IMG/VR virus record: IMGVR_UViG_3300020452_000320
Coordinates: 1 to 64,000 of that record
Length of the DNA: 64,000 bases
Direction: 5' to 3' (one strand)
Source of the DNA: a virus
Below, piece by piece: positions 3,443 to 27,649 of the stretch (position 1 is the stretch's first letter; every line of letters begins with the position of its first letter). The notes under the pieces were generated by a model. It ran no database searches. It was not told the DNA's origin and was given only the letters and a program-made list of their open reading frames with translations. The translations under genes were made by a program, and so were the position numbers.

Positions 3443-4472
3443 CTACAACTTCCTCAGCTTTATTTCCATACTTAAATTCTTTTGTTGCACACTCGTCTAA
3501 CTGTTTCATAATATCTTCAGTAAAGAACCTAGTAGGATCATTATTTATTGTCTTACCAAATGTTTTTGAACCATCTGGTAATTCTATTCTTGTAGAAACA
3601 GATTTAAATATACCATACTTGAGTGCAAGGTCAAGTAATCCATAGTGTCTATCTAAACCTTTGGTATAGGTTAATCTTACATCAACCATTTTGTTTTCTA
3701 CTGTAAGTCTTGATTTTGCATTTTTACAATGCACGATACTACCTATGACTTCAGTTCCATCTTTCTCTTTCTTCTTTGAAAGATATACAATAGATGAAGC
3801 TGCATACTTTAGTCCAGAACCACCACCCATTTCTTTTGTAGGAAACATAGAACCAACAACATCATAAGTATGATTAGTAACAACCATTGGTACTTTTGCA
3901 CGACCAAGTTTCAAAGTTAATACACGAAATGCGGCTTTGAGAACTTGTGCTCGTGTCATATCTCTAGTTTCTTTTCCATCAGCAGTATCTTCTACTTCTT
4001 TCGTAGTAGATAACATACCAAGTGAATCTAAACATAACATAATAGGTTTTCTATCTGATTCACCTTGTTCTAATAACTTATCTAGTACACGAATAGCTTG
4101 TGTTCTAAATTCTTGTACAGTTGTTACAGGAACAATTACCATTCTGTTTGGATCAATACCTCTATCAATTACCATCTGTTTTGTAATTGCAGATTCTGAT
4201 TCAAAGTATAAAACACCAGCTTCTGGATTTGCATCTAGAAAACTTTTGACCATACCCATGACAAAAAATGTTTTACCTGTTGCACTTTCACCAGCGATTG
4301 CAGTTATCTTGTTACTTGGTAATCCACCATAGATACTACCAGACAATAATGCATTAAAGATATAAGAACCAGAGTCAATAAATGAATCTACATCCCCTGC
4401 TTCTACACCATCTGAAACTAAAGCTGCATACTCATTACCAGTTGTTTTTACAATCTCTTTTAAAAAATCCAT
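3420..4472 (-). CDS. uvsX: UvsX, RecA-like recombinase
   Basis: This 350-residue RecA-family recombinase forms filaments on ssDNA for recombination-dependent replication and repair. Walker A is G61-ESATGKT-68, followed by the PVTTVQEF region and a Walker B-like strand ([10 protein letters not shown]). The [11 protein letters not shown] segment matches the UvsX DNA-binding loop region. It should work with UvsY and UvsW (about 20 kb upstream here) and with gp46/gp47. The ATG abuts the stop of mazG without a gap. Confidence 0.96.
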
Positions 4473-24710: not shown

Positions 24711-24718
24711 TATTTATA
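24711..24718 (-). promoter_or_regulatory. Late promoter TATAAATA for uvsY-uvsW
   Basis: An exact late octamer on the minus strand overlaps the stop codon of the tube-family gene. It lies about 113 bp before the uvsY ATG, leaving a long leader. Confidence 0.65.
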
Positions 24719-25316
24719 ATACTTCAAACTCGTACAAATCAAATTGAAACTGAACATCAGCAGTTATTCCTTCTCCAGTTGCATCTTGTGTATTATATGT
24801 TACACCAGATAATGATGATGGATAAAGACCTCTAAAATTAACTCTAATCTTTGGATTGTTTTTATTGGACAGTATATGCATTGTTGCATCACTTGTCAAT
24901 ACTGATGGATTTAAAACTGGTGCATTTCTTACATTAGAAGTTTGCTTAGGAATTACTGGTAATGCACCAGGCTTTGTTTGTATTTCGTTTCTTAAAGCAC
25001 TATCAAATTGTTCGTTGTCTTTGGGAAATCCTATACCAGTTATCCAATCATGCAATTCACGATAATTTGCTAAATCTTCTTGGACTATAAAAGTTACATT
25101 AAGTGTTTCATAAATGAGTGTATCTCCCATAAACGGCACACCTTTGAATCTAGTATTTAATATCGCATCTCCAGACATACTAATGCCTGGAACATTTGCA
25201 GATGTTATCGTATACTCAACATTAGGTAATTTTAGAATATCAAACCTAAACTGTGTTGGGTGTGTATAATCTAAAGTACTAGGTTGTCTGTTTAAAGAGT
25301 TAAAATTAACTGCCAT
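24714..25316 (-). CDS. Tail-tube-family protein (gp3/gp54-like position)
   Basis: A 200-residue protein of the T4 gp19/gp54 tube fold: PTQFRFDILKLPNVEYTITS, then SANVPGISMSG, a KGVPFMGDTLIYETLNVTFI strand pair and an ANYRELHDWITGIGFP helix; the C-terminus YEFEVL matches tube-protein ends. The true tube protein gp19 lies at 31841-32365, so this paralogue may be a tube initiator or terminator/completion protein (gp54, or what marine phages label gp3). The ATG at 25316 is preceded by AAGGAG. A late promoter lies 19 bp upstream. It is placed downstream of gp23 and the tRNA. Confidence 0.75.
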   Translation of the reverse strand: MAVNFNSLNRQPSTLDYTHPTQFRFDILKLPNVEYTITSANVPGISMSGDAILNTRFKGVPFMGDTLIYETLNVTFIVQEDLANYRELHDWITGIGFPKDNEQFDSALRNEIQTKPGALPVIPKQTSNVRNAPVLNPSVLTSDATMHILSNKNNPKIRVNFRGLYPSSLSGVTYNTQDATGEGITADVQFQFDLYEFEVL

Positions 25317-25334
25317 AATGATCTCCTTCACAAG

Positions 25335-25354: not shown

Positions 25355-25443
25355 TGGCTTTGAGGGAAGGGCTCGAACCTTCACGCAAAAATATTTGCAC
25401 ACAATAAACAGTTGTGCGTGTCTACCAATTCCACCACCTCAAA
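25355..25443 (-). tRNA. Unusual class II tRNA, anticodon GUU (Asn), Leu-like body
   Basis: The 89-nt minus-strand sequence folds as a complete tRNA with encoded CCA. Acceptor stem TTTGAGG/CCTCAAA (7 bp), D stem GTG/CAC with loop GAATTGGTAGA, anticodon stem CACAA/TTGTG with loop CTGTTTA, long variable arm GCAAA-TATT-TTTGC, T arm GAAGG-TTCGAGC-CCTTC, discriminator G, CCA. The loop gives C32-U33-GUU-U37-A38, so the anticodon (25409-25407) is GUU, an Asn anticodon. The D arm (TGGTGGAATTGGTAGACAC) is that of tRNA-Leu, and the long variable arm belongs to Leu/Ser/Tyr, never Asn. U1-A72, U37 and G73 are also atypical. It starts 4 nt after the synthetase-like gene. Confidence 0.88.
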
Positions 25444-25447
25444 CTAT

Positions 25448-26272
25448 TTAAGCAGCTAACTTAACATTTATTCTGTCCAGTGCAGAAATTATTCTTGTCA
25501 TACCAATTCCACCGCCAACTCTTGGAATAAAATCATATTTCAAAAATTCATTCAACTCTTTTTGTACTCTATCTTTTCCAAATAGTTTGTATAACAATTC
25601 TGCATACTCACCATCTGATATTGTTTCAAATGTATTTCTCATTTGTTCTTTGTCTGTACTTCTTTCAGCAGAACCTATTGTTTCCATACCATTTAAAATT
25701 ACGTCAATCTTTTTACTGGTAATACCATCCAAATCTTCGTTTCTTGACATATTCCAAAATGGTGAAGTAAACTCTGGAAAGTCTGTAATCATACCCCAAT
25801 CAATAATTTCTTCGTGTTCATTTTCCAATTCACTTACATTAAATTGGTCACTCCATTGATCATAAGTTTGTATTTCTAATTCTGGAAACCCCATATGTTT
25901 ACATAATTCTATTTCCATATTTTTAAGATCATTGATATCGCCAGGCATTTCAAATTCAAACATTGGAAATATTGTTTCATGTCTGCCAGGAATTGCATTT
26001 GGTTCTTGTCTATAGCTAGTGGAAACACAAAAAAACCCCTTACTAGAGGGGCGTGTTAATAGTTCATGTTCTAACCACATTTGTCCAGTTTGTGGCAGGG
26101 GCCATATATTCCCCATGTAATTATATGTTGCGACATTTTCTGGATCTTCGCAAGCCGCTAATATTGATAGTCGATTTTGTGTATGTACTTCTTCAAAACC
26201 TTTGGATAAAAAAAATGACCTCAAAAGGCCAACTGCGTGTGTAAATTTCTTAGGTGATATAAGTTGTGTCAT
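25448..26272 (-). CDS. Class II aminoacyl-tRNA-synthetase-like catalytic core (AsnRS/AsnA-type)
   Basis: A 274-residue class II aaRS fold. Motif 1 region: LLRSFFLSKGFEEVHTQ (16-32). Motif 2: VSTSYRQEPNAIPGRHETIF with R88, E90 and R97-H98, followed by FPMFEFEMPG. Motif 3: GGGIGMTR at 253-260 with R260. The pattern fits the AspRS/AsnRS/LysRS and asparagine synthetase A group; GGGIG is closest to AsnA. AsnRS is about 430-470 aa with an N-terminal OB fold; here that domain is missing. It may charge the neighbouring GUU tRNA, make asparagine, or aminoacylate something else. It follows the gp23 terminator; no promoter of its own is obvious. Confidence 0.75.
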   Translation of the reverse strand: MTQLISPKKFTHAVGLLRSFFLSKGFEEVHTQNRLSILAACEDPENVATYNYMGNIWPLPQTGQMWLEHELLTRPSSKGFFCVSTSYRQEPNAIPGRHETIFPMFEFEMPGDINDLKNMEIELCKHMGFPELEIQTYDQWSDQFNVSELENEHEEIIDWGMITDFPEFTSPFWNMSRNEDLDGITSKKIDVILNGMETIGSAERSTDKEQMRNTFETISDGEYAELLYKLFGKDRVQKELNEFLKYDFIPRVGGGIGMTRIISALDRINVKLAA

Positions 26273-26347: not shown

Positions 26348-27649
26348 TTACATTAAGTTTGTTACCTGTACTCTTCTGTAGTATGTGTTTGCGTTTGCAG
26401 TAAGAGCACCACCACCAGCAGTTGCACCTTCAGCGAATGGGTTTGCTGTCATTCCATATCTGGTTTTGAAACCGATTTTTGGTTGAAATGATTGCTCACC
26501 TACTGCACGAACCATTTGTAATGGTACATATGGGCAGTAAAAGATACCAGCATCAAATGGTGATGCACCCTTATATCCAGATACAAAGTACTGTTTAGCA
26601 GAACCAGAATTTGCAGAATATGGATCAATGTAAACTTTATGTCTACCATTGAGAACACCAGCAAATGTATTTCCAGTATCGTCTACAGTTAGGTTATTAT
26701 TAAGAGCAGGAGTATAGTCTAATACACCAGCCATTTGAAGTGCAGAAGCAACGTCAGCAGAACAGATAATCATGTTACCTTTTCCTCTACGTGTTTCTTG
26801 TGCAATATGATTTGCTTCTCTTTCAAGTTGGAACATAAGTCCTTTGAACTTCTCAACTGACCAACGACCATTTGAGTCAACGTCCATATCAAATATTCCA
26901 GCATTTGCAGTTGTACCAGCAGCTGCACCAGCTTTAGCAGTTTTATATACTGTTCTTACAACTTCTCTATTGATTTCTGAAAGAATTTCAGAAGAAAGAA
27001 TATTTGACAATTCTGTTTCTGCATCAAGACCATGAATTGCTTTTAAGTCTTGTGCAAGTTCCATTGAATATTCTGCTTTTAGTGCTCTTGATCTTGCAGT
27101 AACACTATGCTTTTCAATTGAGAATGCCATCTCTGAAAAATTAGAAGATCCATCACCTAATTCTTCAGCAGCTGCAGTTGTCATAGCAACACCAGATACA
27201 TATGTTCCTGGCGAACTATCGTTAAGAACAGCAGGGTTAGTACCTTGCATTTGAGTTGCACCACCTGAGAAGTCATTATCTGCTTCGTTATAGAATGCTT
27301 CTGTACCAGTTTGATTGGTGAAACGTGATCTCATTGCAAAAATAAGACCAGTTGGCCCTGTCATTGGTTGAACACCAGCAATATCATAAGCGATAAGATT
27401 TGGCATTGATCTTCGTACTAATGAAATTAGTATTGGATCATAACCTTGAACATTCCCACTAGATGGGGCATATCCAGAGTTAGTAGGTGCGGCTTCTGAT
27501 AAAAATTTATTATCTTCTTGAATAGCCTTTTCTTGATTTTCTAGAATAAGTGAGGTAACAGCCCTACGATAAGCATCATCAATCTTTGGAAGATTTTTGT
27601 GCTCAAGAACTGGTTGCCACTTTTCCTGTAGTTGTTCTGTATTGAACAT
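26348..27649 (-). CDS. 23: Major capsid protein gp23
   Basis: A 433-residue T4-type major capsid protein of the HK97 fold. SGNVQGYDPILISLVRRSMP and NLIAYDIAGVQPMTGPTGLI (residues about 62-103) are family signatures, and the C-terminus KIGFKTRYGMTANPFAEG is typical. The gp21 protease site is visible: L50-S51-E52 followed by A53, fitting the (L/I)xE cleavage rule, so about 52 residues would be removed. Late promoter AATAAATA lies upstream and a strong terminator downstream, giving an abundant monocistronic message. It is shorter than T4 gp23 (521 aa), as usual in marine relatives. Confidence 0.96.
   Translation of the reverse strand: MFNTEQLQEKWQPVLEHKNLPKIDDAYRRAVTSLILENQEKAIQEDNKFLSEAAPTNSGYAPSSGNVQGYDPILISLVRRSMPNLIAYDIAGVQPMTGPTGLIFAMRSRFTNQTGTEAFYNEADNDFSGGATQMQGTNPAVLNDSSPGTYVSGVAMTTAAAEELGDGSSNFSEMAFSIEKHSVTARSRALKAEYSMELAQDLKAIHGLDAETELSNILSSEILSEINREVVRTVYKTAKAGAAAGTTANAGIFDMDVDSNGRWSVEKFKGLMFQLEREANHIAQETRRGKGNMIICSADVASALQMAGVLDYTPALNNNLTVDDTGNTFAGVLNGRHKVYIDPYSANSGSAKQYFVSGYKGASPFDAGIFYCPYVPLQMVRAVGEQSFQPKIGFKTRYGMTANPFAEGATAGGGALTANANTYYRRVQVTNLM

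Follow-up and report, generated by a model that had tools for sequence, protein, structure and literature searches.

An asparagine-identity tRNA with a leucine-type body, paired with an AsnRS-like enzyme in marine phages and possibly linked to pyrimidine synthesis

What use might a phage have for a tRNA gene in which a body of the leucine type carries an anticodon for asparagine? Such a gene is present in the window (the whole stretch of 64,000 nucleotides of viral DNA that was analysed), where a sequence-only reading had described it as an intact chimera, and had considered that it might cause asparagine codons to be misread or act as a decoy for anticodon nucleases. The gene and its parts are as follows.

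25355–25443, minus strand: chimeric tRNA gene with a Leu-type class II body and anticodon GUU (ARAGORN, Rfam, covariation)
25437–25443, minus strand: 5' acceptor strand with U1 at 25443, paired with 25359–25365
25407–25409, minus strand: anticodon GUU, in the loop CUGUUUA with U37 (GUU in 72 of 72 linked tRNAs)
25383–25399, minus strand: variable region of 17 nt with a 5-bp stem (6–44 nt across relatives)
25358–25365, minus strand: 3' acceptor strand with A72 and the discriminator G73 at 25358 (in 72 of 72 and 112 of 112 tRNAs)
25355–25357, minus strand: encoded CCA

The gene is genuine, and neither an error nor a product of chance. ARAGORN labels its 89 nt (encoded CCA included) as tRNA-Asn(gtt) on the minus strand, and in a local search it scored 46 bits against Rfam model RF00005, for which the gathering score is 29; it was not matched in an Rfam scan of the whole window at gathering thresholds. 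It has the features of that family (a cloverleaf with covarying stems, a TTCRA T loop and GG in the D loop), with paired acceptor (7 bp), D (3 bp), anticodon (5 bp), variable (5 bp) and T (5 bp) stems. When it was aligned with 22 diverse relatives, all 23 of the 23 pairs were kept in 100% of cells, both sides having changed in 138 cells, and the covariation score was 0.78, against 0.22 after shuffling. The thermodynamic fold of the single sequence (z −0.87) is uninformative alone.

What kind of tRNA is it? In the sample compared, its nearest ordinary tRNAs are tRNA-Leu, the best being a UAG isoacceptor, and tRNA-Leu genes are also the next-best matches in other genomes to a model of the family. 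Together with the paired stems and the covariation, this bears out the description of a non-decayed chimera of Leu-type class II body and Asn anticodon; the T arm, which had been thought Tyr-like, is unremarkable. Despite the Leu-like body, the Leu anticodon and A73 of a tRNA-Leu are absent, with GUU and G73 throughout the family, and the paired variable arm takes the place of the short class I loop expected of a tRNA-Asn. With regard to the Ser-type geometry of the variable arm that SerRS recognises, G73 and a paired arm are present.

Comparison with relatives, a check that the sequence-only reading had itself proposed, revealed which features matter. GUU, G73 and U1-A72 are each constant in all 72 of the tRNAs linked to the enzyme described below, and these are differing sequences: mean identity within the family is 67%, and the variable region spans 6 to 44 nt. 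A sequencing error at 25407–25409 is thereby excluded, as is a normal Leu anticodon in the relatives. The extraction of these 72 tRNAs favoured GUU loops, a bias that was checked through the 5-bp stems and the covariation counts; in an independent set, found by tRNA sequence, U1-A72 and G73 are present in 112 of 112. GUU (G34 U35 U36) and G73 are the bacterial Asn identity determinants, and U1-A72 is a determinant for the amidation of Asp-tRNA-Asn by GatCAB (PMC9976931, PMC4206432). Thus, the Asn identity set is complete in 72 of 72, and U1-A72 and G73, previously regarded as rare and Ser-like, respectively, are both usual features of bacterial tRNA-Asn. The asparagine identity of the tRNA is well supported.

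The neighbours of the anticodon are another matter. A37, the t6A site of tRNA-Asn, is replaced by U37 in the window tRNA and in 63 of 72 relatives, and C33 occurs in 9 of the 72 linked tRNAs. Among 112 ordinary tRNAs used for comparison, position 37 is only A or G (U37 in none), A37 is present in all 29 with U36, and position 33 is U in 110 and C in 2, so U37 was rightly considered abnormal. Its prevalence in the family, with C33 at times, argues against ordinary decoding. With the identity features constant and positions 37 and 33 relaxed, the marks read by a charging enzyme have been kept while those for decoding have been loosened.

The tRNA does not stand alone. It is separated by 4 nt from the end of an upstream gene for an AsnRS-like protein, and both are surrounded by T4-like genes (for head protein, scaffold, protease, tail tube, UvsY and helicase), the nearest of which flank them as follows.

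26348–27649, minus strand: major head protein, T4-like (PHROG 138, E=4e-164)
25448–26272, minus strand: AsnRS-like class IIb catalytic core of 274 aa, the partner of the tRNA (Pfam, AlphaFold, PHROG)
24714–25331, minus strand: tail tube protein, T4-like (PHROG 45, E=5e-32)

The enzyme is encoded in at least 598 IMG/VR stretches, and the family includes members in cyanophages P-SSM2, P-SSM5 and P-SSM7; relatives among T4-like phages of the sea number in the hundreds. The tRNA is no more than 132 nt away, and nearly always at 4–11 nt, in 72 of 86 enzyme loci; in most of the others it is further downstream or the locus is cut by the end of the contig. An independent search of IMG/VR by tRNA sequence alone gave 112 foldable matches. 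The enzyme lay upstream, within 400 nt, of 109 of them, and the remaining three were at contig ends; the search found no tRNA without the enzyme. Linkage is therefore obligate from the tRNA side, and the pairing is well supported, with the tRNA as the RNA member of a cassette of two genes. The cassette is often situated within tRNA clusters, and its genomic surroundings differ between relatives. All the tRNA-linked enzymes fall in one clade (42 rows, 99/90 support). The sequence-only reading missed the adjacent enzyme, the obligate linkage and the recognition set for Asn and the amidotransferase. A few phages (L049, L092, L093, L191/L192) have the enzyme with no special tRNA nearby. Outside the marine clade the special tRNA was not found: in huge phages the strongest model matches comprised only ordinary Leu and Asn tRNAs.

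Some individual loci deserve mention. In P-SSM2, the sequence places the tRNA-Asn at 162083–162168, immediately 3' of a gene annotated as 'tRNA ligase', whereas the records NC_006883.2 and AY939844.2 (L082) put it at 164094–164179, within another CDS, an offset of about 2 kb; an apparent separation of 2 kb between tRNA and enzyme was therefore rejected as misplaced annotation. Isotypes of Ile, Glu, Arg, Asp and Lys given by ARAGORN to relatives with long arms were rejected after manual folding, and the program misnames or misses such relatives at L009, L010, L012, L029, L036, L056 and L060. At L094:4866–4885, 3' of the enzyme, two acceptor strands are fused and the tRNA body is gone, through deletion or assembly error. 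In a relative from a Methylophilaceae genome (L149:5077–5170) the 3' end of the acceptor is broken (CCCCACCA), which may mark an integration site. Predictions resembling tmRNA, with tag peptides ending in AA, lie near the cassette in the marine phage contigs L012, L039, L058 and L063.

What, then, is the partner enzyme? Its recognisable motifs are these.

26069–26092, minus strand: QTGQMWLE motif, residues 61–68 (profile alignments)
25949–26014, minus strand: class II motif 2 region YRQEPNAIPGRHETIFPMFEFE, residues 87–108 (alignment)
25493–25516, minus strand: class II motif 3 GGGIGMTR, residues 253–260 (R260 invariant)

The protein matches Pfam PF00152 (E=4.3e-15). Its AlphaFold model (pLDDT 88) has the AsnRS structure 1x54 as best Foldseek match and gives a VIA Z of 26.5 with residues 242–530 of human AsnRS, that is, with the catalytic part only; a comparison with the archaeal AsnA fold gives Z 23.5, at 16% sequence identity. 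The modelled fold is thus closest to AsnRS. The N-terminal OB-fold anticodon-binding domain of AsnRS is absent. Scores against the asnS equivalog model TIGR00457 (17 bits, cut-off 342.6) and the NCBIfam model PRK06462 for asparagine synthetase A (16.2 bits, cut-off 389) are far below their cut-offs, and the PHROG that it matches (29758) is of unknown function. As in AsnRS, there is a class II core with the motif 2 and motif 3 arginines (R88 and R260, both constant), and E90, R97, H98, E106 and E108 of the motif 2 region are likewise constant in the enzyme alignment (A3). Q61, T62, Q64, L67 and E68 are constant in 23 enzyme sequences. In profile alignments E68 coincides with a Glu in AsnRS and with a Lys in AspRS; we take this Glu to contact the Asn side chain in AsnRS structures. 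The constancy of GUU in the tRNA, though the partner has no anticodon-binding domain, calls for some other reader, either a host synthetase or the ribosome.

The distribution of the enzyme beyond phages gives some clue to its role. At least 110 relatives from cells or MAGs were found by a genome scan, some of them phage contigs in MAG bins, and 80 were fetched (about 49–74% identity). They come from candidate phyla, Dependentiae, DPANN archaea, Chlamydia, Midichloriaceae, Bacteroidota and Pasteurella atlantica. No special tRNA accompanied any of the clearly cellular copies tested, and in nine carrier cell genomes the best model matches examined were only ordinary tRNA-Leu. The existence of the enzyme without the special tRNA, both in cells and in some phages, means that the tRNA is not required everywhere. 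At many cellular loci the enzyme gene adjoins pyrF, pyrE, pyrD or a gene for PRPP synthetase; most copies in candidate phyla are not adjacent to pyr genes. Among 17 carrier genomes, matches over the cut-off were found for CarB in none, for PyrB in 2, and for PyrC in 2 (multi model) and 0 (dimer model). PyrB and CarB were both present in 14 of 14 control genomes, and CarB, complete or in pieces, was present in 53 of 59 non-carriers from the order of one carrier. DHO dehydrogenase was found in 12 of the 17 carriers and not detected in 5. A separate full AsnRS is encoded in 9 of the 17, so the enzyme is not simply the AsnRS of these organisms. In a sample of Patescibacteria the enzyme was present in only 1 of 59, which makes the missing PyrB of that phylum weak evidence. 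Two carriers, G004 (L156) and G016 (L167), have PyrB and PyrC with no CarB over the cut-off, and are at odds with the simple replacement of every early step. On the chromosome of Pasteurella atlantica (NZ_CP074346, L137), an enzyme of the phage clade lies between PyrD and PyrF/PyrE-like genes. The Pasteurella atlantica copies nest within the phage clade, and no CarB, PyrB (above cut-off) or PyrC matches were found in that genome.

Similar arrangements are found in phages, where the cassette forms part of operons of the type PyrD–enzyme–tRNA–PyrE (L189, L190, L197, L234), enzyme–tRNA–PyrF–PyrD (L222, L223) or PyrD–enzyme–tRNA (L203–L206, L208). The small phage PyrD was confirmed as PF01180. Short forms of PyrD (~230 aa) and PyrE (~130 aa) occur in marine phages and in intracellular alphaproteobacteria (L061:2100–2798 and 3935–4324; L126:1867–3015); they also lie beside the enzyme in Midichloriaceae-type genomes, and the small PyrE in Pasteurella atlantica. 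A search of the phage collection gave no match to the small PyrE and only distant matches to the small PyrD, of which no close relative was seen in cyanophages P-SSM2 and P-SSM7. For most carriers, then, the gene neighbourhood and the missing early genes agree in placing the enzyme family with late pyrimidine genes in genomes without the early ones; the link of the cassette to pyrimidine synthesis is circumstantial.

How might asparagine and pyrimidines be connected? A single carbonyl that links the alpha and amide nitrogens of asparagine turns its skeleton into that of dihydroorotate. This relationship, and the fact that the AsnRS-like core is the sole extra enzyme common to the operons, led us to a proposal to which we give a probability of about 0.4: that the tRNA is a dedicated asparagine carrier, which works for the AsnRS-like enzyme in an alternative route to pyrimidines. 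The tRNA probably serves its partner enzyme rather than ordinary protein synthesis. It might be charged with asparagine by the host AsnRS, by a host non-discriminating AspRS together with GatCAB, or by the phage enzyme, and U37 or C33, and perhaps the long variable arm, would keep it from efficient translation. It would then present asparagine, or its own acceptor end, to the AsnRS-like core, which would replace CarAB, PyrB and PyrC by making dihydroorotate to feed PyrD, PyrE and PyrF of phage or host. Cells without the special tRNA could use free asparagine or ordinary tRNA-Asn, whose acceptor end is identical, and so may get by without a special one; a phage would perhaps need a carrier of its own as translation drains Asn-tRNA. 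The fullest version, which we consider somewhat doubtful, would be a non-decoding, tRNA-dependent phage route from asparagine (with bicarbonate and ATP) to dihydroorotate that bypasses carbamoyl phosphate, with an AsnRS paralogue devoid of the anticodon domain as its catalyst; the tRNA-free form would be an unrecognised pyrimidine pathway of scattered bacteria and archaea.

The main rival to the carrier reading is that a minimal AsnRS charges the tRNA with asparagine simply to supplement AAY decoding in AT-rich phage mRNA. AsnRS is the best fold match of the enzyme, the Asn identity set is constant, asparagine accounts for 7.3% of codons in the window's long frames, and the cassette often resides in tRNA clusters, all of which speaks for such a translation pair. 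We nevertheless think it rather unlikely, as U37 and C33 are abnormal features for a decoding tRNA, the enzyme is without an anticodon-binding domain, its cellular relatives stand beside pyr genes with a full AsnRS elsewhere in 9 of 17 genomes, and phage operons combine the pair with PyrD, PyrE and PyrF. It is improbable that the enzyme is instead an ammonia-dependent asparagine synthetase (of AsnA or archaeal AS-AR type), with the tRNA as a consumer or sensor of asparagine: archaeal AsnA is near in fold and likewise without the anticodon-binding domain, but the E68 position is of AsnRS type, the AsnA model scores only 16 bits against its cut-off of 389, and the pyr operons and missing CarAB, PyrB and PyrC would be left unexplained.

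The situation of the tRNA within operons, and its highly variable length, might suggest a structural or regulatory element that controls the enzyme or punctuates a polycistronic message, yet this would not predict the constancy of GUU, G73 and U1-A72, and we see little to recommend it. The roles envisaged in the sequence-only reading seem very improbable indeed. A class II body with G73 is partly like the tRNAs for Leu and Ser, and charging by LeuRS had been suggested, but PMC9976931 lists G73 among the antideterminants for that enzyme. A reading of AAY codons as Leu or Ser is further opposed by the partner enzyme itself, in which invariant Asn residues are encoded by AAT or AAC in these phages. 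Neither misreading nor a decoy for anticodon nucleases would explain the obligate enzyme partner, and the decoy would also leave unexplained the constant U1-A72 and G73 and the pyrimidine operons.

Part of the cassette has been listed before, without interpretation, as the 'tRNA ligase' T4-GC 194 of P-SSM2 and P-SSM7 (PMC3037559). These genes belong to the same family (72–74% identity), and a tRNA-Asn follows them. In the open-access literature we found neither a report of the tRNA–enzyme pair nor one that places an AsnRS paralogue in pyrimidine synthesis. Tools for finding tRNAs misname or overlook such genes, and the tRNA family is probably under-annotated. The cassette is widespread in marine phages and ties a tRNA to one enzyme, rather than to the ribosome only. 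If the link to pyrimidines is real, it represents an unrecognised entry into a core pathway and a further case of a tRNA as metabolic carrier, and would explain the pyrimidine supply of genomes that have pyrD, pyrE and pyrF without CarAB, PyrB and PyrC.

Among known systems, AsnRS and tRNA-Asn share with the cassette the catalytic core fold, motifs 2 and 3, the Q.GQ..LE motif, GUU, G73 and U1-A72. The phage enzyme differs in having no anticodon-binding domain and in falling far below the cut-off of the asnS model, and the phage tRNA in its class II body, long paired variable arm and U37. Archaeal asparagine synthetase A (AS-AR; PDB 3REX, 3RL6) is also a truncated class IIb core of similar length without the anticodon-binding domain, but its sequence identity to the phage enzyme is 16% and its genomic context is different; we know of no tRNA dedicated to it. 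Pyrrolysyl-tRNA synthetase and tRNA-Pyl provide a precedent for a dedicated synthetase-like protein encoded together with an odd tRNA, although GUU is a sense anticodon and codon reassignment was not seen. The use of an aminoacyl-tRNA as a metabolic substrate, hypothesised here, is known from the Glu-tRNA route to tetrapyrroles and from asparagine synthesis by GatCAB; those routes use ordinary tRNAs, whereas the phage tRNA is dedicated and its pathway would be pyrimidine synthesis. Conservatively, the cassette is a variant of the systems based on synthetase paralogues or on synthetase/tRNA pairs; if the carrier reading is true, it would be a new kind of system.
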